In this document: piece by piece, positions 15,344 to 59,195 of the stretch
Position numbering within the stretch: the stretch's first letter is position 1
How the letters are laid out: each line of letters opens with the position of its first letter
NCBI GenBank assembly: GCA_021731085.1
Contig: JAKFYB010000018.1
Location: forward strand, 1-64,000
Reading direction: 5' to 3'
DNA length: 64,000 bases
DNA from: Dehalococcoidia bacterium
Lineage (GTDB): Bacteria; Chloroflexota; Dehalococcoidia; DSTF01; JACRBR01
Position numbers and translations under genes: made by a program
The notes under the pieces: generated by a model
What the model saw: only the letters and a program-made list of their open reading frames with translations
What the model was told of the DNA's origin: nothing
Database searches by the model: none

Positions 15344-18300
15344 TTGAACCTCTCAGCCTACTTCCCGCGCATCATCAAGGAGTGGCAACAAGACACTCCG
15401 GATAAGAACGTGCGTGTCATCGAAGGCTCGCTCGTCTTCATGGACATCTCCGGCTTCACCGCAATGTCAGAACGCCTCGCGCGCAAAGGCAAGATTGGTG
15501 CCGAAGAGGTCACCGAAGTTCTGGACTCCAGCTTCACCTCGCTCCTTGAGGCCGCCTACGCAGAAGGTGGCTACCTGCTCAAGTTTGGCGGCGACGCCAT
15601 GCTCTTGCTTTTCGCCGGCGACCGCCACCCCGCACGTGCTTGTCGCGCAGCCGCCCTGATGCGCGCGAGGCTGCGAAAGGGCGGCGCGTTCAACACGTCC
15701 GCTGGCAATGTGCGCCTGCGCATGTCCGTCGGCGTACACAGTGGCGATGTGCATATGTTCCTCGTCGGCGAGTCCCATCGTGAACTCATCGTCACCGGGC
15801 CTGCCGTGACACGCGTCGTCGAGATGGAAGCGGCAGCCACCGCCGGGCAGATTCGCATCAGCGACAGTACGGCCGCCGGCCTGCCGAAATCCTGCGTCAG
15901 GGAGCTACATGATGGCGCTGGCCTCCTGACGAAGGCGCCATCTGCCTCCAGCGCGGACGAAGTCACCGCTCCACCATTGGAAGTCATGCCCGACGCGGGC
16001 AACTTTGTGCCGGTGTCCATCCGCGACCATCTCCAGGGAGGCGTCAATCCCGAGAGCGAGCACCGTCACGCTGTCGTCTGCTTCATCCACTATGAGGGCA
16101 TCGATGCTCTCATGGCGTTATCCGGCCTGGAAGCAGTCGAAGACGCGCTGAGCCGGCTTGTGACGGCCGTGCAGGCCGCCGCCGCCGAGTTCGGCCTCTG
16201 CTTTCTAGCGACAGACATCGATCGCGACGGCGGCAAGATTATTGTTACGGCTGGCGTTCCGCGTGCAACGGGCAGTGACGAAGAAGGCATGCTGCGCGCT
16301 GTTGCGCAGATCCTCGCAGCAGACCAGCCGCTCCACCTTCGCATCGGGATCAACGCTGGACCGATCTTCGCTGGAGATGTTGGCCCCGACTACCGGCGAA
16401 CATACACGGTCATGGGCGACGCGGTGAACCTTGCTGCACGCCTCATGGCGAAAGCGGAGCCGGGTCAGGCCTTAACCGTCGCCGGCGTGATGGACAGGTC
16501 TCGCACCACATTCGCTGCTCAAGCGCTCGAACCCTTCACCGTCAAGGGCAAGGCAAAGCCAGTGACCGCATTCGCTGTTGGTGAACCGCGGGGCTTGCGA
16601 ACATCCTCCGACGTGCGCCTCCCCCTTGTGGGGCGCGAATCGGAAATGCAGCTCCTCCTCGCCGCATTGCAAGCCGCCAGCAAGGGCAGTCGCGGCATCA
16701 TCGAGATCGCGGGCGACGCAGGCATCGGCAAGTCACGCCTCATCGACGAATTGAAAACGAACGCATCGCCCGTCATCTGCATCGAGACTTCCTGCGAGCC
16801 GTACGAGTCGTCCACGGCCTACTTCCCCATGCGACGCCTGATTCATACCATCCTTGGCGTGGCTTCCGGCGCCGATGCGGCGGCCGTGGCTGAACGTCTG
16901 ACAACGTGGGTCGCCGACAATGCACCAGACCTTAGCGAGTGGCTTCCTCTGCTCGCGGTGCCACTCGACGTCAATGTGTCTCCATCGCCATCCGTCGACC
17001 GTCTTGCCCCTCGTTTCCGCAGGGCCCAACTGCACCGGGTATTTGGCGACTTCCTCACCCGTGCTGCTTCTTCACCGACGATGTTCGTGTTTGAGGACAC
17101 ACAATGGATGGACGACGCCACGCGCGATCTACTCGCCGATGTGGTCGCAACCTCCGCCGAACTACCATGGCTGTTCCTCGCAACGCGGCGTACCGAAACC
17201 CCGCCCGTATTCGCGGGGTTCGAAGATGTGTCGGTCGCGATTGCACTCGAGCCACTGTCCCAGGAAGCGTCCGAGGAGTTGGCGATAGCAGCCCTCGGAG
17301 ATCACGCGATGGCGCGACACACGATGTCCGTGTTGACCGATCGCGCTGGTGGAAATCCATTCTTTTTGACCGAGATGGCCGTCGCGATGGCATCGCAGAG
17401 AGAAGGCGATGCCCTCCCTGAAAGTGTGGAGGCGCTGCTCGCAGCACAGGTTGATCGCTTGACCGGCGTCGAGCGCCGCGTCCTGCGCTATGCATCCGTC
17501 GTCGGCCCAACGTTCAACACCCGCCTGCTCGAGGAGAGTCTCGGCGAAATGCTGGAGGGCTCAGCCGAAGAGGCCTGCCGCGGACTCTCCGAGTTCCTCA
17601 TCCCGATGGGTACAGACGCATATCGTTTTCGCCACACCCTGGTGAGGGAAACTGCATACAGCGGCCTCCCTTTTCGCCTACGCCAACAACTCCATGAGCG
17701 ACTGGCGCTGAGCATAGAACAACGTCACCGACGACGTGTTGAGGCACGGGCGGAGCTTCTTTCGCTGCACTTTCACAACGCGCGCAGATACGACAAGTCG
17801 TTGCACTACTCCCGTATCGCCGGCGATCGCTCCAAGTCCAAATCAGCAAACGTCGAAGCCGCCGCCTTCTACAAGCGTGCACTGGAAGCATCGAGCCGCG
17901 TCCCGGACGTCTCTGCTGATGACCAAGCCGTGCTCTATGACTCGTTAGGCGACGTGTGCGAGCTCTCCGCCATGTACGAGGACGCCTCGCGTGCCTTTGC
18001 GCAGGCTCGCCGACATCAACACGGCCTGGCCGAACGATGCCGCCTTCTCCGGAAGGAGGGAGTCGTTCGCGAGCGCCTTGGTCAGTATGGGCACGCCCTT
18101 CGCTGGTATAGCCGCGGGTTGCGCTACGAAGATGCGGCTGACCCGCATGACATCAACCAGCTCCAGCTTGCGTATGCGGGCGTGAGGTTCCGCCAGGGCA
18201 AGTACGCCGAATGCGCCCGCTGGTGCCGTGAAGTTGTCCCCAAGGCACAAGCCGCTGGCGACCGCAAAAGCCTCGCTCACGCGTACTACCTGTTGGATCA

Positions 18301-19126
18301 CGCCTACACCATGTTGGGCAGCAGCCAGGCTGGCGAGTATCGTACCCTCGCGCTTCCGATCTACGAAGAGTTGGGCGATCTCATCGGGCAGGCGAACGTC
18401 CTCAATAACCTTGGCGTATCAGCGACAATTGATGGTGATTGGGACGAAGCACTCACGTTGTTCGAGCGAAGCCGGCTCGCTCGCGAACGCGTGGGTGATA
18501 TCGTCGGCGCTGCAACGGCCACCAACAACATCGGTGAAGTCTATCTCGACCGCGGCCAGATCGACGAAGCAGAGGTCCTCTTTCGTGGAGCCCTGCGAAC
18601 ATGGCGTGGTGCGAATTACGCCGTTGGCATTGCCGTCGCGACTAGTGCCCTCGGCCTCGCAGCGACGCGTGCCGGACGCTTCAGCGAAGCGCGGACGCTC
18701 CTCGAATCCGCCCTTGAAGACTTTCGCAAAATACACGCCGAAAGTTTTGTGTTCGAGACGCAGGGCCGTCTCGCGGAGCTGTTGCTCGCGGCTGACGAGC
18801 TAGCTCTCGCAAGTGAACTCATCGAGGCAACGCTCGCCAACAGCCAGGCCAACGACATGGGCGCGCTGACTGTTGCTCTCAATCGGCTACGCGGGCTGGC
18901 GCTGGCCAAGTCACACAGGTTGGATGAGGCCAGGGACGCCGTCGAGGAGAGCATTCGCCTGGCCCGCTCAATTTCCGCGAACTACGAACTCGCACTGTCC
19001 TTGCATGTGCTATCCGACGTCCAGTCGATGCTAGGCGAGGCGGAGGGCGGGAACCTCGACGAGAGCAACGCGATCCTGCGTGGCCTGGGCGTGGATACGG
19101 CAGCGCTGCCCTACGGCCTGTCGTAA
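15344..19126 (+). CDS. Class III nucleotide cyclase with tandem cyclase domains, AAA ATPase and TPR
   Basis: 1260-residue cytoplasmic signal protein. Domain 1 (residues about 20-190) keeps both metal-binding Asp sites (FMDISGFTAMSERL and KFGGDAML) but lacks the Asn/Arg pair. Domain 2 (about 240-400) has lost the metal sites (CFIHYEGID) but keeps VMGDAVNLAARL with the transition-state Asn and Arg. Together they could form a single composite active site. A Walker A (IAGDAGIGKSRL, about 462-473) starts an AAA/STAND ATPase with Walker B-like MFVFEDTQWMD, and TPR repeats fill the C-terminal third. TTG start. It likely makes cAMP (or cGMP) in response to protein-protein input. Confidence 0.9.
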   Translation: MNLSAYFPRIIKEWQQDTPDKNVRVIEGSLVFMDISGFTAMSERLARKGKIGAEEVTEVLDSSFTSLLEAAYAEGGYLLKFGGDAMLLLFAGDRHPARACRAAALMRARLRKGGAFNTSAGNVRLRMSVGVHSGDVHMFLVGESHRELIVTGPAVTRVVEMEAAATAGQIRISDSTAAGLPKSCVRELHDGAGLLTKAPSASSADEVTAPPLEVMPDAGNFVPVSIRDHLQGGVNPESEHRHAVVCFIHYEGIDALMALSGLEAVEDALSRLVTAVQAAAAEFGLCFLATDIDRDGGKIIVTAGVPRATGSDEEGMLRAVAQILAADQPLHLRIGINAGPIFAGDVGPDYRRTYTVMGDAVNLAARLMAKAEPGQALTVAGVMDRSRTTFAAQALEPFTVKGKAKPVTAFAVGEPRGLRTSSDVRLPLVGRESEMQLLLAALQAASKGSRGIIEIAGDAGIGKSRLIDELKTNASPVICIETSCEPYESSTAYFPMRRLIHTILGVASGADAAAVAERLTTWVADNAPDLSEWLPLLAVPLDVNVSPSPSVDRLAPRFRRAQLHRVFGDFLTRAASSPTMFVFEDTQWMDDATRDLLADVVATSAELPWLFLATRRTETPPVFAGFEDVSVAIALEPLSQEASEELAIAALGDHAMARHTMSVLTDRAGGNPFFLTEMAVAMASQREGDALPESVEALLAAQVDRLTGVERRVLRYASVVGPTFNTRLLEESLGEMLEGSAEEACRGLSEFLIPMGTDAYRFRHTLVRETAYSGLPFRLRQQLHERLALSIEQRHRRRVEARAELLSLHFHNARRYDKSLHYSRIAGDRSKSKSANVEAAAFYKRALEASSRVPDVSADDQAVLYDSLGDVCELSAMYEDASRAFAQARRHQHGLAERCRLLRKEGVVRERLGQYGHALRWYSRGLRYEDAADPHDINQLQLAYAGVRFRQGKYAECARWCREVVPKAQAAGDRKSLAHAYYLLDHAYTMLGSSQAGEYRTLALPIYEELGDLIGQANVLNNLGVSATIDGDWDEALTLFERSRLARERVGDIVGAATATNNIGEVYLDRGQIDEAEVLFRGALRTWRGANYAVGIAVATSALGLAATRAGRFSEARTLLESALEDFRKIHAESFVFETQGRLAELLLAADELALASELIEATLANSQANDMGALTVALNRLRGLALAKSHRLDEARDAVEESIRLARSISANYELALSLHVLSDVQSMLGEAEGGNLDESNAILRGLGVDTAALPYGLS

Positions 19127-19208: not shown

Positions 19209-22200
19209 CTACGAACACTGCCTCCCTGGGGTCATCAGACGGGCCACCGGTCCCTGGTCGCCTGCATTGAGTAAACCATCCTTGTTGACGTCCAGGTTTG
19301 GATGGTACGGAACGAATTGCACCACGCCGCCCGCCAGCATCCCCATGTCGGCAACGTTCACGACGCGATCCTGGTTGAACGATGCAGCCTCGCAGATGTC
19401 GATTGCACCGCCTGAGCTTCGGTCTCCATCGCTATCAACAGACGTCGGACTCGTGTTATAGAAGCAGATTTCGACCGCGTCACTCAGTCCATCACCGTCG
19501 CTGTCGCCAAGGCTGCCGCACGCCGTAACCGCGGGATGGCTCTCCGCGCTCGCGGGATCCGTGCCCAGCGTGCACTCGATGCCGTCGCGGTAGCGGTCGC
19601 CGTCGCTATCGAACGCAAGCGGGTTGGTCGATCCGCTCGCTGACGTGCATGGCAGGAGGCCGTTCTCGACGGTGTCGTTCAGCCCGTCATTGTCATCGTC
19701 TGGGTCGCATATATCGCCCTGCGTGTCGGAGTTTGCCCGCGTTCCGTCATGCGTGTTCGGGTAGGAAGGCGCGTTGCTGATGAAGTTGCGATCGCTGTTC
19801 GTCTGATCCGGATTCCCGACGAAGCTGCAGTTGTCGCCGCTGTCCGAGATACCGTCGCAGTCGATGTCGTCACCCGCACACGGCACCGCAACGGTGTAGT
19901 TCACCGTAGTAACGCCCGCGTTGCCGGCCACATCGACCGAGTTCACCGTGAACGTGTGCGGCCCGACCGTCGACGTATCGATGTTCGTTCCGTTAGGCAC
20001 AGGCCCGTTGCACTGCGCCGCCCCGGAGCCGGCATCCAGGCAAATGTAGGCCGCGGCCACGGGTTGGCCTTGCGTATACGTCGTCCCTTCGGTCGGAGCC
20101 GTGAAGAGCGCCGTCGGTCCGACGCTATCGAGCGGCACGATGGCGCCGCCCGTGGAGCCATCCGACGCCTCCGCAGTGATGATGTGGATACCGGTCCCCG
20201 TCACGGCGAATGGTCCCGAATACACCTGTGCAGGCCCACCGTCGACCTTGAAGGTCACCTGCGTGTCCGGTGGGCCTTCAACTGTAATCGCAGCCTCCAG
20301 ATACCACCCTGAGCCGCCCGCTGTGCCGTCCACCGTCACCGCGACGCCGGATTGTACGGGCGCGGCGATTGTTTGGTGAAACTCACCCTTGTTTGTGCTC
20401 AGCGCGACGTTCCCGCTCGAGTCGAGCGCGTACAGCGTGTATTGCACCGCGCCAACGACCGCCGCCGCACCTGTCCAGCGCTGGCTGCCAGGATCGAGCA
20501 CAAGGTCCAACGTGTGCCAATTCCCGTTTTGCTCCGTCTTGTAGAGCACCAATACACGCCTGACATTGTCGGGCAAGTCATCCTCGACCGACGCCGCAAA
20601 CGTGACCACGCCGCCCACAGTCGCCGCGTGCGTCTCGAGAATCGTCGGTGACGTCACATCCGCGCTGTTTGAATACGGGATGAAGGCCGAGATGTTCGTA
20701 TATAGACGCTCCGTCCCGACGCCGAGAGGCAGATTCGGGTCCGGAATGAACTGCGCCGGCATGAACATCGCACGTTGAGTCACGCCACTGGCGTCGTTCA
20801 CGCTCGTAATGGCGTGAATAGATGCCGGGAACGTGCCGGACGAAGGCTGCTCGGGCGAACCGGAATCGCTGTCCGGCTTGCTGAAGACAGCATCGAACGG
20901 CGACTCGTCCGCAGACTCCAGCCCCATCAGTACGATGCCGCGCGCGGTCTCACCGTTCGGGCCCTGCGGCAACGCAACACCCGTTATCGGCTGAATCGGC
21001 CTCCCCGACGTGGACTGTGATTGGCCGTTGATCGTGTAGTACGCACCATCGGCCCCTGAGTCGACAAGCTCGAACTCCGGCTCCAGATCCAACCGGACAC
21101 CCTCGAATCCGCCGATCGGTTCGACCACGAACGGCGGCGTGTCCGCCAGATCCGCCAGCGTAATTGATGGCCCCGCCGCTTCAGGCAGCCGGTACATCGG
21201 GAGGCCATAGAACGTTGCCTGCGCGATGACCTTCTCGTCGTACGTCTGCACGTGCACGAGGTTGCCCACGTACCTGCGCTTGGCAGTCGCCATCGCTTCC
21301 CCGAGCGTCATGTTGCCGGAGAAGTTCTGCGCGAACAGCGACATGAGCTGTTCGGAGTACGCGACGGCCTCCGTGTCTCCATATCCATACCCGGTGTTCG
21401 CGACGTATACGGCCGCACCCTGGTTCGCGAATGCCGCGGGCCAGTCAAGCAGCCGCTCCGCCTGATCGCCCGTCGGCGATGGCACGAGCACATCCGGCAC
21501 ATTCAGACCGGAGTGACAGCCCATCGAGAAGATGATGCTGCCCGGAAGAATCGCCGGTGTGTTGGTCGCCCGTGCGACATTCGCCGTTGTGAATAGATCT
21601 GTTTCATCGCCTGTTGTATTGCCTGCTCCCGGCAACAGCCGGTAGTGGTCGAAGTGTGCGTTGATCGCCGCGATGTCCGGCGGTGGCAGCTTGAGGTTGA
21701 ACGCTGCCGCAAGGTCGCCGCTGGTCCAGGCATCGTTGATGAGACGCGCCGAGCTCAGCGCTCCGACCACCGCATCAACAGCCGTCGCGACATCGTTCGC
21801 CCCATCGGTCAAGAAGTCGTAGCCCGTCGTCAACCCGGTCGTCGGGTCAAGCTCGCCCTCGAACTGAATGAACTGGTCGACCTGCGCCTTGATTTGCGCC
21901 GGATCCTCAACAAGACGCCCCAGCGCCACTTCTGGCACGAAGATCTGCCGATTGAGTACTGAGATTGGGTGGAACGCGCCGTACGGGTTGTCCGACAGCA
22001 CGTTCGACGTCACGAAGGTTCCGACGAGACTGTTGCTGCCAGCGATGTTGAGCACATCCTGGGTGTAGTCGCTCTCGTTGGAGATGCGCGTCACATCCGG
22101 CACGCGTGCGAACGGGATCGCATCGTCCGCCCCCACGATGACAATGTTCTGCAGATCCGGCAGAGAACCACGATAGCCATCGACAACGGCATTGATCGCC

Positions 22201-25200
22201 GCTACAACGCCATTCGCCGCCTCCGGATCGCATGGGTTCGCGTCCCACGTCGCGTATTCGGCCGAGACCGCACTTGCGCCATCGACCGCGAGAACAGCGC
22301 CGTTCACACCGAGGTCCGACCGCCCTGCAAGCGTCGTCAGCGACGCCATCACGTCGGCCGCAGCAGCCGCGCCGTACATGTCGCCGAGTCGCTTCTGATT
22401 GACGATGAACAGTGTGTTGACCGTCGTCGGCAGCGAGGCCGGGAGTGAACCTGTGGCCCCCTGTCCAGCGAAGGCGAAGCTGCGCTGCGGGCAGGCTGGA
22501 ACGGGCGGTGGCGGCGAAACCTTGACGCGAAGGGTGTAGGGCTTGTCGCTTGCCGCTCCGTTGTACCCCGCAACCTCAAGCGCGTACGAGCCGCCGCCAT
22601 CAAGCGACAGCGCTGCAACGGATTCGTTGGACGTTCCGCGCTGGTCCGAAAGGTCACCGAGCGGAAGCGGCGCGAGATCGATGTCTTGCAGCGTCACAGG
22701 TGGAGAGTCGTTCGACAGGATGTCCGGCCGCGCGTCTTGCAGCGGGATGCTGCTCAACTTGGTGTCGCTGGGCGGACGCAGCTCCGCGACGTTCGGAAGG
22801 AAGATGGCCAGGTCGTTGTCCTGCGCCAAGTGACTCAAGTACACCGACACGCGCGACCCAGGAGCCACCGCCGCAAGCCGGAAGAAGTCACGGTCTGTCG
22901 CGCTGCTGATGTGGGACAGGTACAAGACGTCCGGGTCAGCGAAGGGTGCCGTAGCCGGATCACCGTTAGGCTCAAAATTCTCCGTGACATTTGTCGGCGC
23001 TTGGTTCGTTGCGCTCAGTCCGGCGAATCCGCCAGCGCTGAGGCTCAGAGACGCGGTTCGAATCCCCAACTCGACGCCAGGCCGAACCACGAACACGAGC
23101 GTCACCTGGTCACCTGTGTTGAAGCCTGGCAACTGCCACTGCGCATCGCGACCATTAATCGCCGGATCCGCAGTCGGCGTGTCGGTCGTAGTTGCACCGT
23201 TCACGACGACCAATCGAGAGCTCCCCGCCTGATAGTGGAAGCCTGGAGGCAAGGTAACCAGCAGCGAGGACGGCACGCTGCCACCAAGATTGTCGAACGT
23301 CGCGCTGTAGGTGAGCACGTTGGTCGACGGAACATCGCTCGATGTGAGCGCATCCAGCGGCACGTCCTCCCACGGATAGTCAGAGCGAATCAGAATCGCG
23401 AGGAGAAGGTCGCCGAACGTCAGCTCATCGAGGTTTACCGTCGCGCCGTTCGCCACGTTCACCAGGATGTCTTCCCCGTAGAAGAACGCGAGGAAGTACT
23501 CCACGACCGACTGCGGCACGCCCAGCGCGGTCAGCACATCCTGCACCGACCCGTCACCATACGAACCCAACATGCCCAGTGTCGCCTCAGGGCGAATCGC
23601 GTTCGCGACTGCCGCATCTCCCAGCGTCGCCGTCACCGAATTGCAGTCAACAAGGGCGCAGTCGACCACCTCATCTCGCTCGCTCACAGGAATCGAGCTC
23701 AACTTGATCGGATTCAAGAACGATGAACTCACACCAATACTGCTCAGCTTGATCGACGACAGCTTCGTCCCACTGATCGCGATGGAATCGAGCGCAATCG
23801 AACTCAGCTTGATGGCCGAAAGGTCGATGCTACTGAGCTTGATCGAACTGAGCTTCAGTGTCCCGATCGGACTCGAAGCCACATCACTACCGGCTCCCGC
23901 AAACGCTGCGACTGTTTCGGCGAGCGTACTCTCCTCACCGATCCCCAGCGCCACGCAGTCGAAGCCTTCGGCAGCGAAATAGGCGCACCACGACGGTTGG
24001 CCATCTGGAAGCTCGATCGAACTGAGCTTCACCGACGACAGGCTGCCCTCGGTCAGGGTTGAAACCGGGATCGAACTCAGCTTGATCGAACTGAGTTTGA
24101 GGTCCTGAACCGGAATGGAACTGAGCTTGAGGCCCGCGATTCCCGCCTCGACGAGATCGATACTGCTCAGCTTGATGCTGCTGAGCTTGATCGAGCTGAG
24201 CTTCACGCCCTTCACATTCAGTTCGAGCAGTGTCGCCGTCCCGATCGTGCTCCGCGTGTAGCCCACAGCGGCACAACTCGAACCCGCGTCCTCCAACACT
24301 TCACACCAGTCGTTCGCCGGTGCGGGCGGCGCGATCGAACTGAGCTTGGTCGGGCCGAGCGTTACGGCGGCCAGGCTCAACGAATTGAGCGCCGTCTCGC
24401 TGAGATCAACATCTGAAAGCGTCAGGGCTGTCGGTGAATTCGGATCCAGCGCGGCTGGCGGCGGATTCAGATCAAGCACGTCGATAAACGTGACTTCCTG
24501 CAACGGCACGCCTTGCAACGTCGTGCCAGCGAGCACAGCCTCCCATCCACCCTCTCGCGTGATCGGAATGGACGAGAGCTTGATGCTGCTGAGCTGAATT
24601 GACGAGAGCTTGATGCTGCTGAGCTTGATCGAGGACAGCTTGATGTTACTGAGCAGAATCGAACTCAGCTTGATCGAGCTGAGCTTCGATGCGCTTGGAC
24701 TGTTGCCCTCCGACAACGCCGCCAATGGCACATCAGCAAGCGGCAATGCCGCGATACCCGCGGGCACCTCCGACTTGTCCACCGTCAGGCTCAGTCCCGC
24801 GAACGACGGCAGCGCAGTTGCCGTCGGCGTAGGTGTCGAGCTCGGAGTCGCCGTTGATGTCGATGTGGCAGTTGCCGTGGGCGTCGGTGTGCTCGTCCGC
24901 GTAGCGGTAGCCGTAGCCGTGGGAGTTGGCGTGCGCGAGGGTGTTCGCGTAGGCGTGCTAGTCGCACAGCCGGTTGCCGCCGCAGGCTGCGGGATCGGAC
25001 TCTGCGAGAACGAAGGCAAGTATCGTCGGTACGCAGGGTCAGTGCTTGGCTGGAAGTTTGACCCGCTCGAATAGAGCTTGATACTTCCGGTAGGCGTGAT
25101 CGGGCTCGTCACGCCTGAGAGCGCGAACAGCTGCAACGTGACCGCCGTCGGATGGTCGATCACCGTGAATCCCGCTGGCGGGGCCGGATGTGTCGTCAAC

Positions 25201-25481
25201 GTGTCGAAGTAGTGGTACTCCTTGATGACTGTGCCGCCGACATTCACATCAACGACGACGAGCCGGTTGTCGCCGGAATCGCCACCCCCACCATTCTGAT
25301 AGCTAGCGGTGTAGGTCCACCCTCCAGCGCAGTTGTACGAGCCTGCCGCCGCAATGTCATGCGCTAGGGCGTCTCCGCGCGTCACGACAATGGCGAGGAT
25401 GCTCGCTACGGCAGCTACCGCGACTGAGCACGCCAACCCCTTAACCCAATTGCGAGCGCTGCGATTGCCGAAATTACTCAT
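19209..25481 (-). CDS. Giant secreted pentapeptide-repeat / clan CD peptidase-like / dockerin-like protein
   Basis: 2090 residues. An N-terminal signal segment (residues about 14-40) precedes a small beta domain and a Thr/Pro-rich linker. Residues about 240-610 are a five-residue-periodic solenoid dominated by KLSSI units, with register small-S-I/L-x-L as in pentapeptide repeats, broken by Cys-bearing inserts. About residues 1100-1440 resemble the gingipain-like (C25, clan CD) peptidase fold: INAHFDHYRLLPG could hold the His and IIFSMGCHSGLNVPD the Cys. Ig-like modules, then thrombospondin type 3 Ca-binding repeats (DDDNDGLND, DSDGDGLSD) and a dockerin-like end (DRVVNVADMGML, DVNKDGLLNAGDQG). 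GGGGG precedes the ATG. Protease activity is inferred. Confidence 0.88.
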   Translation of the reverse strand: MSNFGNRSARNWVKGLACSVAVAAVASILAIVVTRGDALAHDIAAAGSYNCAGGWTYTASYQNGGGGDSGDNRLVVVDVNVGGTVIKEYHYFDTLTTHPAPPAGFTVIDHPTAVTLQLFALSGVTSPITPTGSIKLYSSGSNFQPSTDPAYRRYLPSFSQSPIPQPAAATGCATSTPTRTPSRTPTPTATATATRTSTPTPTATATSTSTATPSSTPTPTATALPSFAGLSLTVDKSEVPAGIAALPLADVPLAALSEGNSPSASKLSSIKLSSILLSNIKLSSIKLSSIKLSSIQLSSIKLSSIPITREGGWEAVLAGTTLQGVPLQEVTFIDVLDLNPPPAALDPNSPTALTLSDVDLSETALNSLSLAAVTLGPTKLSSIAPPAPANDWCEVLEDAGSSCAAVGYTRSTIGTATLLELNVKGVKLSSIKLSSIKLSSIDLVEAGIAGLKLSSIPVQDLKLSSIKLSSIPVSTLTEGSLSSVKLSSIELPDGQPSWCAYFAAEGFDCVALGIGEESTLAETVAAFAGAGSDVASSPIGTLKLSSIKLSSIDLSAIKLSSIALDSIAISGTKLSSIKLSSIGVSSSFLNPIKLSSIPVSERDEVVDCALVDCNSVTATLGDAAVANAIRPEATLGMLGSYGDGSVQDVLTALGVPQSVVEYFLAFFYGEDILVNVANGATVNLDELTFGDLLLAILIRSDYPWEDVPLDALTSSDVPSTNVLTYSATFDNLGGSVPSSLLVTLPPGFHYQAGSSRLVVVNGATTTDTPTADPAINGRDAQWQLPGFNTGDQVTLVFVVRPGVELGIRTASLSLSAGGFAGLSATNQAPTNVTENFEPNGDPATAPFADPDVLYLSHISSATDRDFFRLAAVAPGSRVSVYLSHLAQDNDLAIFLPNVAELRPPSDTKLSSIPLQDARPDILSNDSPPVTLQDIDLAPLPLGDLSDQRGTSNESVAALSLDGGGSYALEVAGYNGAASDKPYTLRVKVSPPPPVPACPQRSFAFAGQGATGSLPASLPTTVNTLFIVNQKRLGDMYGAAAAADVMASLTTLAGRSDLGVNGAVLAVDGASAVSAEYATWDANPCDPEAANGVVAAINAVVDGYRGSLPDLQNIVIVGADDAIPFARVPDVTRISNESDYTQDVLNIAGSNSLVGTFVTSNVLSDNPYGAFHPISVLNRQIFVPEVALGRLVEDPAQIKAQVDQFIQFEGELDPTTGLTTGYDFLTDGANDVATAVDAVVGALSSARLINDAWTSGDLAAAFNLKLPPPDIAAINAHFDHYRLLPGAGNTTGDETDLFTTANVARATNTPAILPGSIIFSMGCHSGLNVPDVLVPSPTGDQAERLLDWPAAFANQGAAVYVANTGYGYGDTEAVAYSEQLMSLFAQNFSGNMTLGEAMATAKRRYVGNLVHVQTYDEKVIAQATFYGLPMYRLPEAAGPSITLADLADTPPFVVEPIGGFEGVRLDLEPEFELVDSGADGAYYTINGQSQSTSGRPIQPITGVALPQGPNGETARGIVLMGLESADESPFDAVFSKPDSDSGSPEQPSSGTFPASIHAITSVNDASGVTQRAMFMPAQFIPDPNLPLGVGTERLYTNISAFIPYSNSADVTSPTILETHAATVGGVVTFAASVEDDLPDNVRRVLVLYKTEQNGNWHTLDLVLDPGSQRWTGAAAVVGAVQYTLYALDSSGNVALSTNKGEFHQTIAAPVQSGVAVTVDGTAGGSGWYLEAAITVEGPPDTQVTFKVDGGPAQVYSGPFAVTGTGIHIITAEASDGSTGGAIVPLDSVGPTALFTAPTEGTTYTQGQPVAAAYICLDAGSGAAQCNGPVPNGTNIDTSTVGPHTFTVNSVDVAGNAGVTTVNYTVAVPCAGDDIDCDGISDSGDNCSFVGNPDQTNSDRNFISNAPSYPNTHDGTRANSDTQGDICDPDDDNDGLNDTVENGLLPCTSASGSTNPLAFDSDGDRYRDGIECTLGTDPASAESHPAVTACGSLGDSDGDGLSDAVEICFYNTSPTSVDSDGDRSSGGAIDICEAASFNQDRVVNVADMGMLAGGVVQFVPYHPNLDVNKDGLLNAGDQGPVARLMTPGRQCS
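23690..24722. repeat. 15-bp tandem repeat array coding for KLSSI units
   Basis: Several runs of 15-bp units (GAGCTTGATCGAACT and variants on the + strand) encode KLSSI on the - strand. Runs of up to eight consecutive units occur near 24560-24700; others are scattered singly or in twos and threes. Synonymous variation between units (GATCGA, GATGCT, GATACT) shows the array is not a recent perfect expansion and that the peptide is under selection. Confidence 0.85.
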
Positions 25482-26477: not shown

Positions 26478-27586
26478 CAACCTTTGAATGCAATAGCCGG
26501 ATCGACGCCACCGACGCGACGGGCCGGGATGATCGCGGCAGCAGCAGCCATCAAGATCGTCGCGAGCAGCACGAACAACACATCAATCGGACGTATGAGG
26601 ATGACGAATGCCGGCATCGCCGCGTCGATGAACAAACTCAACAAGATGGTAAGCAGTACGCCAAACACGAAGCCGATCGCGCCTGTGATGACGCTCTGCA
26701 TCACCACCAGCGAGTACAGGTCGCGGTTGTTGAAGCCGATCGCCTTCATGATGCCGAACTCTCGCGCACGCTCGATCGTCGCTGTGTAGATCGTCAGGCT
26801 CGTGATCGCGATACCCACGATGAATGCCAGTCCGACAATGAGAAACAGAATCGGAAGCACGTTATCCAGGATTCGGTGCCGCGTCGCCGAAGCAAACTCC
26901 CCGGACGTGAATACCTCAACGCCATCGGTCGTGCTTGCAATATCAGCGGCAGTCGCGCTCACGTCGGCGCCCTCCTCCAGCGTAACCAGCCAGAATGTCA
27001 CCAGATCGCCCATCCCAAGAAGTTCCGCCGCCGTCTCCTCCGAAACGAAACCCGCCTGCGTAAACGCAAAGTTTCCACCAGAGGCGATGCCTGTGATTGT
27101 CAGCGTCATGCCGCTGCTCTCAAGCTCATCGCCGATCCCTACGCCGCTAATCTTCGAGAGCACGTCGTCGATCACGATCTCGTTCCCGGACGGATCGCCT
27201 TCGCCCTTGATGATCTTCGCCGGTCCACCGACACCCGACTCCACGTCGTATCCGATCAGGTGGACCTCAACCTTGCTTCCGTCATGCTCGAACGCCATCG
27301 GCCGTACGATTAGCGGGTATACCGCGGCGACGTCATCACGGGCGAGCATCTCTTCGCCCATCGCGCCGGGAAGAATCGACGCAGCGTTAATGAAGTCCGT
27401 CGTCCCATCACGCGCGATCCAGATGTCGGTGTCGACCTCGCTCACGAAGCCGCCGACCTTGTTGTTCCAGCCCTGGAAGATCCCCAACAAGACGGTGATG
27501 AGAAATACGGCGAGACCGATGCCGGCCGCCGAGAACGCAAAGCGCATCTTCTCGGCCATCAAGTTCCGAGCGGCGAGTAGTGTCAT
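26477..27586 (-). CDS. ABC transporter permease, FtsX/MacB-like
   Basis: 369 residues: an N-terminal helix (RFAFSAAGIGLAVFLITVLLG), a large extracytoplasmic MacB_PCD-like domain (residues about 45-235), then three more helices in the FtsX domain, ending IIPARRVGGVDPAIAFKG, the usual family end. Its ATG overlaps the patatin stop (ATGA) and its stop overlaps the ATPase start. Resembles DevC/MacB permeases with four helices. Transported substrate unknown; the coupling to a phospholipase suggests lipid or lipoprotein handling. Confidence 0.9.
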   Translation of the reverse strand: MTLLAARNLMAEKMRFAFSAAGIGLAVFLITVLLGIFQGWNNKVGGFVSEVDTDIWIARDGTTDFINAASILPGAMGEEMLARDDVAAVYPLIVRPMAFEHDGSKVEVHLIGYDVESGVGGPAKIIKGEGDPSGNEIVIDDVLSKISGVGIGDELESSGMTLTITGIASGGNFAFTQAGFVSEETAAELLGMGDLVTFWLVTLEEGADVSATAADIASTTDGVEVFTSGEFASATRHRILDNVLPILFLIVGLAFIVGIAITSLTIYTATIERAREFGIMKAIGFNNRDLYSLVVMQSVITGAIGFVFGVLLTILLSLFIDAAMPAFVILIRPIDVLFVLLATILMAAAAAIIPARRVGGVDPAIAFKG

Positions 27587-29382
27587 GTTGCGTGAGCCTT
27601 CAAGTACGGTAGGCGCGCTTGCAAGTCGCGCGACGCCCCCATCGTAGCCGCGTAACCCTGTTCAGAGATCTCCGAAACGCGTTGAAAGTCCCGGATGCCG
27701 CCTGTTCCTTCGATGCAAACCTCCACGTTGACGTCTGCGGGCTCTCGGCTCATCTCGGAAATGCGATTCAACATGATGTCAAAGCTGCGAATGAATGACT
27801 CCACTGCGTACGGCTTCTTCGGCCGGAAGTCCAGCTCGTCCCGCGGCGACGTCTCTGTCGCAGTCAGCCGAATCCCGACGACGATGCCTGCTCCCAGTTC
27901 GCGACACTGCCGCACGGGCACCGGGCTGAGGACGCCGCCATCAACCAGATAGCTGCCCATACCCGCCGATGCCGGATACACGCCCGGTATCGCCATGCTC
28001 GCCGCGATGCGCGGCCACAACAATCCCGACGTGAACGAAATCGCTGCCCGACGATAGATGTCGACTGCCACGATAGATAGTGGCAGTTCGAGATCCTCGA
28101 TGCGCTGCTCGCCGACCACGTGACGCAGTTCGTCTTTGATCGCAGCGTTGCTGAGGAATGAATGAATCGGGAGCGTCGGCCGAATCGCTCGCTTCGCCAC
28201 CCGCGTCACGATCTCACCAAACGTGTCCACTGGCATGTGCGAGGCCACGCAGGCAGCCACGGCCGACCCAATGCTGCAGCCGCTCACCATATCGATCGGC
28301 GTACCCAGATCTTCCAGCGCTCGCAGCACGCCGAGGTGGCCAAGACCCTTCGCCGCCCCTGCGCCAAACGCCACGCCGACTGTGCGATCCGTGATCACCC
28401 GCGCAAGCTTGTCGATAGGACGCCTCGGTGCGCCATCTCGTCCCGAAGTGCGCGGAATGATTGCAGCAACTGGTCGGCCGTAGCTCTCGGACAGGCGACG
28501 CATCGTCGGCACCGTCCAAGGAGCATCGCCCACGACGACGAGTGCGCCTTCCGCGTCGTGCACCACACCTGCGGTCGGCGAACTCGCGTCGACGACATGG
28601 AATCGCCGCGCCTCCACGCCCTCAGCCGCGCGAAAGCCAGCCTCATCGCACAAAAGCAGTATTTCCCGCGCATCTGACGAAACGGCTTCAGCTATGTGCG
28701 CGGCATCATCAGCCAGAATGCGGACATCAGCGCCGCGCGCGCTGAGGTCAGCCGCTGCCGACGCCCACTCCTGTCCGATCAAAACGACAGCAGTGCGCCC
28801 CGTGGTGGTTCCGGCGATCGCAGTTGGAAGCTCCTGGAGCGCACCGATCAAGCTCGGCGGACAGCACACAATACGCACGATGGCAGTGTCGTGGGCCACC
28901 AGCCGCTCATTCGCGAGCTTCAGCCGCGTCGCCAGAATCGCCGACAACGCTTCGAACAACTCAGACCGTATGCTCCCGAGGCGGCTCAACTCCTCTTGGG
29001 ATATAGAAAGCACGCGCACGCTCGTGACAGCCGACACTTCGGCTGATGCTGGCTCTCCGGTCAGCAGTGACATCTCTCCGACGCACTCGCCCGCCAGAAT
29101 CTTGCCCAGCTCCCGTCTGTCCCCGCGCGAAGTCGCCGCAGTGACGGACGTGACGCCCTCCACGATCAGGAAGAAGTCGGGGCGAAGCTCCCCCTGGACG
29201 ACAAGCCGCTCGCCGACGGCGTACGTCCGTTCGTGCATGCGCTCGCGAAGGTTCGCCCAGGCCGACGCGCCAAGCACGCGGTTCAACGGCCCCTGGACAA
29301 GGGCGACGGAATTGGTCGGAATGGTCACGGATGCCCCGGCGGCGCGGCGGTTCTCGGCCGCGCCCACGCCATCATCTTGCAA
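27583..29382 (-). CDS. Patatin-like phospholipase with N-terminal cNMP-binding domain (NTE/RssA-like)
   Basis: 599 residues. Residues about 30-150 form a cyclic-nucleotide-binding fold (GERLVVQGELRPDFFLIVEG, and GECVGEMSLLTGEPASAEV, the phosphate-binding cassette region). A middle linker domain follows, then a patatin domain with GAGAAKGLGHLGVL (oxyanion loop), GCSIG (nucleophile Ser) and VDGGVLSPVPV (catalytic Asp). This is the neuropathy-target-esterase-like layout: a lysophospholipase whose activity may respond to cNMP. In the cassette, EMSLLTGEPASAEV lacks the Arg-Ala pair typical of strong cAMP binders. TTG start with GAGGA 5 bases upstream. First gene of the ABC operon. Confidence 0.9.
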   Translation of the reverse strand: MQDDGVGAAENRRAAGASVTIPTNSVALVQGPLNRVLGASAWANLRERMHERTYAVGERLVVQGELRPDFFLIVEGVTSVTAATSRGDRRELGKILAGECVGEMSLLTGEPASAEVSAVTSVRVLSISQEELSRLGSIRSELFEALSAILATRLKLANERLVAHDTAIVRIVCCPPSLIGALQELPTAIAGTTTGRTAVVLIGQEWASAAADLSARGADVRILADDAAHIAEAVSSDAREILLLCDEAGFRAAEGVEARRFHVVDASSPTAGVVHDAEGALVVVGDAPWTVPTMRRLSESYGRPVAAIIPRTSGRDGAPRRPIDKLARVITDRTVGVAFGAGAAKGLGHLGVLRALEDLGTPIDMVSGCSIGSAVAACVASHMPVDTFGEIVTRVAKRAIRPTLPIHSFLSNAAIKDELRHVVGEQRIEDLELPLSIVAVDIYRRAAISFTSGLLWPRIAASMAIPGVYPASAGMGSYLVDGGVLSPVPVRQCRELGAGIVVGIRLTATETSPRDELDFRPKKPYAVESFIRSFDIMLNRISEMSREPADVNVEVCIEGTGGIRDFQRVSEISEQGYAATMGASRDLQARLPYLKAHAT

Positions 29383-29485: not shown

Positions 29486-31312
29486 TCACGAAGCCAACGA
29501 AGCTATCTCGCGGTCCGCACGCCGCAATCGCGCTGCGAGCTGACGCGCGAGCCAGCCCAGTAGTGCGGTCTGAGCGCCGTCATCTAGCTCAGCGACACGC
29601 ACTTCGTAGCAGACGACGTCCGTCTCAGCGTCGATGTCCGCCGTGCGCGGTTCGGCGTCCATTAGCGCCATCTCACCGAACACTGCCCCGGGCCCCATCG
29701 TTGCGATGCGATAGCGCTCACCATGTTCGACCGTCAGGTTCACGCTTACGCTTCCGGCCATCAAGAGAAACGCCGTTTCAGCGGGGTCGCCTTGCGTGAG
29801 GATGCGATCACCACCGGCGAAGGAAACACGCGACGACGCGCGATGGACCCCTTCTCTATCCTTGTCTGACAGCCCGGCAAGAAGGGGATGTTCATGCAGA
29901 GGCATTTCGTCCGTGTGATCGGCGCGCCAACTGTCTCCTGCGAGAAGCTGATCTTCGCACCACTCAAGCGCAAGATCGATGCTTGAAATACATCTGCTAG
30001 CAGAACCGTTCGCGGCCGCCGACCACAAGAGCATTCCGCCGGACTCATTCTCACGCAGTCCGGCGAACACCACTTGCACGGCACGATCCGCTGCCAGCGT
30101 CACGAAGCGTTCAAACAGCCGGGCTGACCCAAGGTCGCACGTCTGCACGCGATGACAATCAAACACGACGAACTGAGCTTCAGTGCTCATCGCGAACGCT
30201 GTCCGCAGAACAGCTTCTGTATTGCTCATCGCGAGTGGCCCTTGCAGACGTAGCACAGCGACCGAACCGCCCTTTGCGACGAGTTGCCGCATCTCGTTCT
30301 CACTCCGTCGCCGTTTCGAGCTGACGTCCGCAAGCGTGTACGTGTTCATCACGGCCGACGTCATGCTGACCGGAGGCTTCAGGAGGTGCAGGCCGAACTC
30401 CTGTGATAACGCCTCACACACCGCTACTCCACGCACGGAGTTGCCGACTGCGTCGAGTCGCGGACTATACACACCTACTCCGAGTTGCCCTGGCAGCACA
30501 GCGATGACGCCACCAGAAACGCCGCTCTTAGCTGGCATCCCCACTTTATATAGCCACGAGCCCGCGTAGTCGTACATGCCGCACGTGGCCATCACGCTGA
30601 GTACCTGTGCGACGTCGTTCTCCTCCATGACCCGCTCGCCCGTGCGCGGATTCTCTCCACCCTTCGCCAGTGTTGCAGCCATCATCGCCAAGTCGCGGAC
30701 GTTCACTAGCACGGAGCACTGGCGGAAGTATCTGTTCAGCACATCTTCGACATCATCTCCGAGGATCTCCGCGTTTCGCAGCATGTACGCGATCGATCGG
30801 TTCCGGTGTCCAGTCGCTTTTTCCGATTGATAAACCCCGGCGTCGAACCCCAGCCCATTGCCGGCAAAGCGTGACAGAAAATCCATCACGCGGGCATCCT
30901 TCACAGCGGACCCGGCTCCATCGATGAGACCCGCCGTAGCGATCGCGCCGGCGTTGATCATCGGATTGCGCGGCCTCCCGGTATCGAGTTCCAGGCTGAT
31001 CGCGTTGAACGCGTCGCCGCTAGGCTCGACGCTTACATATTCCATAACGCGGTCAATGCCCTGATCGGAAAGAGCGAGGCCATAGACGAACGGCTTTGAG
31101 ATGGACTGAATCGTGAACGAGACACTGGCGTCGCCAACCGCATACGTGTGGCCATCCACAGTCGCGATACACAGGCCAAAGTGCTCGGGTACAGCCCGCT
31201 GGAGTTCCGGAATATAGTCCGCAACATTCCCGTCCGACAACGAAGAAAAGCGCTGATGCAAGTCCGTCAGCGCATGAAGGAGCGGTGATATCGCGTAGTC
31301 GTCAGTGGACAC
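29486..31312 (-). CDS. glsA: Glutaminase fused to STAS and cNMP-binding domains
   Basis: 608 residues. The first 310 residues are a serine-dependent beta-lactamase-fold glutaminase (glutamine to glutamate and ammonia): SFTIQSISKPFVYGLAL holds the Ser-x-x-Lys pair, and GRPRNPMINAGAIAT the substrate-binding Asn. Residues about 345-450 resemble a STAS domain (VAVLRLQGPLAMSNTEAV, FVVFDCHRVQTCD), and about 475-595 a cNMP-binding domain (GDRILTQGDPAETAFLLMAG, GAVFGEMALMDAEPRTADI). GTG start. It is upstream of, and in the same direction as, the cNMP-binding patatin operon; the 103-bp gap allows read-through. Confidence 0.9.
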   Translation of the reverse strand: MSTDDYAISPLLHALTDLHQRFSSLSDGNVADYIPELQRAVPEHFGLCIATVDGHTYAVGDASVSFTIQSISKPFVYGLALSDQGIDRVMEYVSVEPSGDAFNAISLELDTGRPRNPMINAGAIATAGLIDGAGSAVKDARVMDFLSRFAGNGLGFDAGVYQSEKATGHRNRSIAYMLRNAEILGDDVEDVLNRYFRQCSVLVNVRDLAMMAATLAKGGENPRTGERVMEENDVAQVLSVMATCGMYDYAGSWLYKVGMPAKSGVSGGVIAVLPGQLGVGVYSPRLDAVGNSVRGVAVCEALSQEFGLHLLKPPVSMTSAVMNTYTLADVSSKRRRSENEMRQLVAKGGSVAVLRLQGPLAMSNTEAVLRTAFAMSTEAQFVVFDCHRVQTCDLGSARLFERFVTLAADRAVQVVFAGLRENESGGMLLWSAAANGSASRCISSIDLALEWCEDQLLAGDSWRADHTDEMPLHEHPLLAGLSDKDREGVHRASSRVSFAGGDRILTQGDPAETAFLLMAGSVSVNLTVEHGERYRIATMGPGAVFGEMALMDAEPRTADIDAETDVVCYEVRVAELDDGAQTALLGWLARQLAARLRRADREIASLAS

Positions 31313-59105: not shown

Positions 59106-59139
59106 GGGTTCCGGTGCGCCGGCGCTGGATGCGCCGCTG

Positions 59140-59195
59140 TATTGCGCCTACGCTGATGCGCCTACGCTGGATTGCGCCTACGCTGGATGCGCCTA
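59140..59195. repeat. Short tandem repeat TGCGCCTACGCTGGA
   Basis: Three to four copies of a 15-16-base unit (TGCGCCTACGCTGGA and variants) directly follow the palindromic repeat and run into the last codons of the ceramidase-like gene on the opposite strand (stop at 59193). Confidence 0.65.

Follow-up and report, generated by a model that had tools for sequence, protein, structure and literature searches.

Gingipain-like extracellular peptidases reportedly occur in subsurface sediment. Pentapeptide proteins are known from exported or lumenal settings, as in Rfr32, which has a signal peptide, and the lumenal domain of SV2C (PMC8145042), so that the initial annotation of the locus studied here was mistaken in holding nearly all known members to be cytoplasmic. 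Peptidases of the clan CD type have also been described together with NTPases and cyclases in the caspase/STAND/cyclase conflict systems of multicellular bacteria, according to passages of PMC7159879. In the open-access literature searched we found no description of uniform repeat arrays in C25 proteins, nor of a gene pair made up of a C25-array protein and a cyclase. Here we report such a pair from a stretch of 64,000 nucleotides, referred to below as the window.

Layout of the peptidase and its KLSSI units

The peptidase is encoded by one gene on the minus strand (19209-25481). A broken frame had been named in the initial annotation as grounds for dismissing its account; the frame is intact over all 2090 codons. 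From the N to the C terminus, the protein comprises a signal peptide, an N-terminal domain, a Thr/Pro linker, a predicted pentapeptide solenoid, a YPWE region, a beta domain, a PPC domain with an insert, the C25 peptidase, further domains, and a TSP3/dockerin-like C-terminus. Its features are:

19209-25481, minus strand: coding sequence, 2090 aa, from frame and domain reading of the sequence
25362-25481, minus strand: signal peptide, about aa 1-40, with a basic n-region, a hydrophobic core and an ALA motif near aa 40
24807-24965, minus strand: Thr/Pro-rich linker, aa 173-225, read from the sequence
23652-24764, minus strand: predicted solenoid, aa 240-610, with strict KLSSI and degenerate in-register pentads
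24567-24686, minus strand: strict block 1, aa 266-305, eight contiguous pentads, the longest strict run
24333-24347, minus strand: isolated KLSSI, aa 379-383, with conserved flanks (alignment A2; PLRSV in the same slot of relative L041)
24207-24314, minus strand: first Cys-bearing insert, about aa 390-425 (DWCEVLEDAGSSC), with a WC..L...G..C pattern common to most relatives
24015-24203, minus strand: strict block 2, aa 427-489
23691-23855, minus strand: strict block 3, aa 543-597
23277-23684, minus strand: conserved post-solenoid region, aa 600-735, with C...C, TLGD and DYPWE (alignment)
22452-22874, minus strand: PPC-type domain (about aa 870-1010), interrupted at about aa 903-960 by an insert (alignments A1 and A2)
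22746-22760, minus strand: lone KLSSI within the PPC insert, aa 908-912 (alignment A2)
21138-22442, minus strand: C25 (gingipain-family) peptidase domain, aa 1014-1448 (Pfam PF01364, alignment A1)

The match to PF01364 (E 2.3e-12; 47.3 bits against a cut-off of 23) bears out the earlier description of the protein as peptidase-like. A putative catalytic dyad, assigned by motif and not by structure, consists of His1276, an invariant alignment column, and Cys1322 (GCHSGL), which lies in a GC motif present in most relatives and is replaced by Gly in L009. Export and the position of the array behind a Thr/Pro linker were likewise annotated correctly: a signal peptide can be read from the sequence, the linker precedes the solenoid, and a hydrophobic signal-like stretch was seen in 27 of the 28 family ORFs inspected. 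Pfam recognised the PPC domain in 6 of the 13 members of alignment A2, the window protein not among them. The assignment as an exported peptidase of the C25 family (clan CD, gingipain-like) is well supported, its proteolytic activity being predicted.

Exact KLSSI occurs 21 times in the protein, against a chance expectation of about 0.002 copies from its residue counts. The copies begin at aa 266, 271, 281, 286, 291, 301, 379, 427, 432, 437 and 452 and, further on, at aa 462, 467, 485, 543, 548, 558, 573, 578, 593 and 908. Twenty thus lie within aa 266-597, and the last is found about 310 residues downstream of the last solenoid unit; the initial annotation, spanning 23690-24722 (aa 254-598), did not include it. 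The strict five-residue periodicity reported there is real, with LLSNI and QLSSI as the sole variants in the eight-pentad run of block 1. The arrays are not continuous, since degenerate in-register pentads (PVQDL, ALDSI, GVSSS FLNPI) and two inserts carrying paired cysteines (aa 393/403 and aa 499/509) separate the strict blocks. Elsewhere in the window, a short tandem repeat with a unit of about 15-16 bp was detected at 59115-59195 (TRF).

Array words among relatives

When the repeat region or the whole protein served as a single query, no relatives were found in viral contigs or genome contigs; a single-query search of the phylum yielded mostly ordinary pentapeptide proteins, and a plasmid search gave only weak matches to a C-terminal stretch. 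An alignment scan of genome contigs with C25 gathered 78 loci, mainly from Chloroflexota and Actinomycetota but also from Verrucomicrobiota, Acidobacteriota and others, Microbacterium and Nocardioides strains being among them. As to the search for similar SSIKL proteins that had been suggested, relatives have arrays in homologous slots, but their words differ. By our searches the gene is single-copy in its own genome, where a second PPC-C25 profile match is partial (E 2e-6). A strong relative is present in about 11 of 393 genomes of the window's class, whereas the genomes sampled from its own genus, family and order yielded none, making the distribution of the gene patchy.

Fifteen rows of the C25 tree, including the window, form one clade. 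Most of them have the window's N-terminal layout, in which an array between DIP.ESI-like and GGW..LL.GT.L...PLQ.VTL.DVL motifs is followed by the Cys insert, more array, YPWE, PPC and C25. Other relatives carry the array solely as an insert within PPC, after a DYDL strand (Pfam PPC confirmed in several). Arrays across the family thus occupy two sites at matching places, the N-terminal solenoid or the PPC insert.

Each protein has its own word of five, six or, in a few cases, seven residues. Besides KLSSI in the window, the five-residue words include PLRSV (L041 and L042), PLRSI (L044), PLSSI (L077), PLQNI, ALNST, PVHRL, AQFSP, GYDDG and EGSWD, as well as PISSL (50 copies in L079) and PISSI (36 copies in L093); GQMSNI, APAGKR, PMARSG and APNARR are among the six-residue words. 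The tree needs at least 48 word changes and 7 changes of word length among labelled rows, a count in which labels are exact words and near-identical words therefore score as changes. Even paralogs of one genome differ in their word (GQISNI in L070, PDAFS in L111), and these two words in one genome counter the idea that some modifier acting genome-wide dictates the word.

Several arrays are unusual in composition. The array upstream of C25 in L117 mixes GSGFA units with PDEFS/PEAFS, like related xFSPx arrays, as if one word were in the course of replacing another. In the N-terminal arrays of L046, L053 and L055, six-residue words (APNARR, APAGKR and PMARSG) fill the relatives' pentad slot, while the rest of the domain retains a period-5 signal. 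The hexad arrays of L052, L065, L069, L070, L088 and L097 consist of two near-equal halves around one differing unit (GDLxDL), as if they were hairpin-like or had a fixed number of coils.

Only the window protein, L041 and L042 have the same word in their N-terminal array and PPC insert, that is, 3 of about 14 proteins with N-terminal arrays. This low proportion speaks against self-association, in which uniform solenoids would stack on other copies of the protein while divergence of the word barred cross-assembly of paralogs. Such stacking would agree with the uniformity over separate blocks, with the word shared by separate arrays in the three proteins and with paralog-specific words; even so, we give it little credence.

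Fold, uniformity and codons of the arrays

A phmmer comparison with PDB aligned I-K-L-S-S to pentads of solved pentapeptide proteins, including the designed beta1. Because of this alignment we place Leu at the centre (i) and Ile at i-2, so that the register reads I(i-2) K(i-1) L(i) S S; the initial annotation, with Ile/Leu at i and Ser at i-1, had the register wrong. A large hydrophobic residue at i is accompanied, in register, by an inward residue at i-2. Profile A2, built from the window protein and 12 relatives, matched the solved structures of beta1 (1e-8), HetL (3du1, 5e-5), Np275-276 (1e-4) and Alr5209 (0.006). Pentapeptide_4 scored 31.2 bits on the window solenoid, under its gathering cut-off of 38. 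When all KLSSI-like units were masked, the hydrophobic correlation at lag 5 (and lag 10) in aa 236-605 survived, with a lag-5 signal of 0.048 against a null standard deviation of 0.014 that was reached in 0 of 5000 shuffles. No period-5 hydrophobic signal was present in the downstream part of the same protein.

From these data we infer that aa 240-610 probably form a pentapeptide-type right-handed beta-solenoid. The helix proposed in the initial annotation is retained as a probable fold for its period-5 signal and its profile matches to solved members, although not in the register then given. The six-residue arrays of relatives were also compared with the hexapeptide left-handed beta-helix: profile A3 found no match in PDB, and Hexapep matched in L059 only (14 bits, E 0.03). 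It is thus unproven that every array adopts the same solenoid fold, because the six-residue arrays share the slots while their profile is without a solved match.

Nor does the pentapeptide fold by itself explain uniformity. In ordinary pentapeptide proteins of the phylum, the commonest exact pentad makes up a small share of the pentads; such members need no pentads this uniform. The initial annotation suggested a rigid surface stalk or adhesin; as a stalk, the solenoid would be a purely structural spacer that would hold the peptidase off the cell surface without any role in recognition. Although the Thr/Pro linker, the solenoid signature and the TSP3/dockerin-like C-terminus would suit a spacer, it needs neither identical surface positions in each unit nor a word common to separate blocks, and the array is also found as a loop insert within PPC. 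We regard a mere spacer as rather unlikely.

At the DNA level the units are far from uniform. The 21 KLSSI units have 16 distinct DNA versions, and the synonymous mismatch between them amounts to 94% of that expected from independent codon draws (ratio 0.94). Most other arrays have ratios from 0.6 up to 1.0 or higher, the lowest of all being 0.33 (L077). Many arrays have a pN of zero or near zero at a pS of 0.6-0.9; in several, such as L073, L053, L072 and L054, pN is 0 to 0.01 at a pS of 0.6-0.8. The window's pN/pS of 0.49 understates constraint, because changes of six-fold Ser codons between TCN and AGY pass via other residues and raise pN. Both the codon-level divergence between units and the selection on the peptide claimed in the initial annotation are therefore upheld, the word being near-invariant while its codons are near random.

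Comparison of related arrays pointed the same way. Between L052 and L057, which are 94% identical downstream, units match at the codon level by 0.84 on the diagonal and by about 0.5 off it. The layout 5+GDLVDL+4+GQVGNI+GTLVAV is common to L065 and L070, yet all nine copies are GQLSNI in the former and GQISNI in the latter, with codons mixed. L052 and L078 resemble this pair, with a Met/Leu difference and the layout kept, and L104 and L108 have 21 pentads each. We read these patterns as suggesting that words are replaced in place by concerted change under selection. Arrays may instead be reborn and then undergo long codon divergence, since in the compared pairs the flanking codons, too, approach saturation.

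Head-to-tail copies could also arise if a functionless 15-bp DNA unit had recently slipped or been duplicated, and a few arrays, such as L077 and L101, do have rather similar DNA units. However, codons are near saturation in most arrays, pN/pS is very low in many, units are inherited one to one between L052 and L057, and layouts are kept between divergent relatives. This origin is already largely contradicted, and we hold it to be extremely unlikely. Recent duplication is the usual account of identical repeats, whereas these arrays combine an identical peptide with nearly random codons. They thus provide a natural setting in which to test how repeat uniformity is maintained by selection.

The neighbouring cyclase gene and a candidate role

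The peptidase gene is convergent with a second gene, 82 bp away:

15344-19126, plus strand: sAC-like neighbour, 1260 aa, with two class III cyclase stretches, AAA_16 and TPR

Its best solved relative is human ADCY10 (soluble adenylyl cyclase; 1e-20), and it contains the tandem class III cyclase, AAA and TPR regions that mark sAC-like proteins. Of 39 evaluable array loci, 34 have a homologue of this cyclase no more than 2 kb from the peptidase gene, in several orientations; among array loci with flanks of at least 4 kb on both sides, the count is 21 of 26. Cyclase and C25 distances are correlated (Mantel r 0.875, p 0.0002), shared organismal descent contributing to the correlation, and the nearest neighbour is common to both proteins in 25 of 36 cases. 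By script count the cyclase adjoins loci without a called array less often (3 of 8 evaluable), although L101 and L106 may be mislabelled; because most array-less rows form one clade, their contrast with array loci amounts to roughly a single comparison. The cyclase gene is co-inherited and co-diverging with the array peptidase gene across phyla.

No conserved cluster extends beyond the cyclase, as the ABC transporter, patatin and glutaminase genes of the window do not recur consistently near the relatives. Near the window's cyclase gene, a patatin-like phospholipase (27583-29382, minus strand) and a glutaminase (29486-31312, minus strand) each carry a cyclic-nucleotide-binding domain and are possible effectors. 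We also considered a defence system; PADLOC matches were generic (class III cyclase, TPR, cNMP-binding/patatin), with no match to a whole system.

The TPR partner invites an explanation resembling Rap/Phr-type peptide signalling. The arrays would be multi-copy precursors of a signalling peptide of 5-7 residues, freed by C25 or another protease; the oligopeptides would be taken up, bind the TPR of the neighbouring cyclase and alter cyclic-nucleotide levels. This scheme is attractive because word lengths of 5, 6 or 7, paralog-specific words, a uniform peptide over near-random codons, a protease in cis and a TPR partner in most array loci would all fit. However, fixed layouts with degenerate middle units and a pentad scaffold outside the units point to a fold, and no cleavage residue is common to the words. 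Divergence of the TPR does not clearly track the words either, since L065 and L070 differ in word while their TPR and cyclase are both 88% identical. Both the release of such a peptide and its proposed action on the cyclase seem very improbable to us. A clan CD cleavage site, with one K, R, N or D per word, was considered and rejected, as many words have none of these residues (PISSI, PLSSI, AFSPS, GSGFA). A broader version, in which the two genes form a module and the TPR-cyclase reads the word of the protease, whether freed as a peptide or displayed on the surface as a self/non-self code, is improbable as well; if it were true, signalling specificity would be set by the turnover of words between paralogs and between species.

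We lean towards a different reading, namely that an exported C25 peptidase bears a uniform-word solenoid for recognition or docking and, together with a cytoplasmic cyclase, makes up a module. While the protein's anatomy is well supported, its surface role and a functional, beyond a genetic, link to the cyclase are what we infer. The N-terminal half would be a pentapeptide-type solenoid enlarged by near-uniform KLSSI, one copy of which sits in the PPC loop. Strict pentads would stack into ladders of identical surface Lys, Ser and Ser around an Ile/Leu core, giving the secreted protease a stiff multivalent surface. Our best guess is that this putative surface serves recognition or docking of a partner, a substrate or another copy, rather than catalysis, and that the cytoplasmic cyclase partner would act alongside it in one signalling or response module. 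A likely signalling context for the arrays follows from the linked cyclase and is genetically testable in cultured Actinomycetota relatives.

In comparison with known systems, the window protein shares with the C25 gingipains a catalytic domain above the Pfam cut-off, the GC motif and the conserved upstream His; it differs from them in an architecture of the Chloroflexota/Actinomycetota type, where the catalytic domain is preceded by a solenoid and a split PPC, and in a C-terminus that reads as TSP3/dockerin-like. The neighbour resembles ADCY10-like sAC in its two cyclase stretches, AAA_16 and TPR, whereas it is bacterial, is linked to the gene of an exported protease and has a cyclase activity that is predicted only. 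The conflict systems described in passages of PMC7159879 are vWA-MoxR, VMAP, TRADD-N and related ones, as opposed to exported C25 arrays paired with an sAC-like gene. With the pentapeptide proteins HetL, Np275-276, Alr5209 and beta1, finally, the window protein has in common the five-residue period, the hydrophobic centre and the inward i-2 residue. Unlike them, it is exported and fused to C25, scores below the Pfam gathering threshold, and repeats a single word near-exactly.
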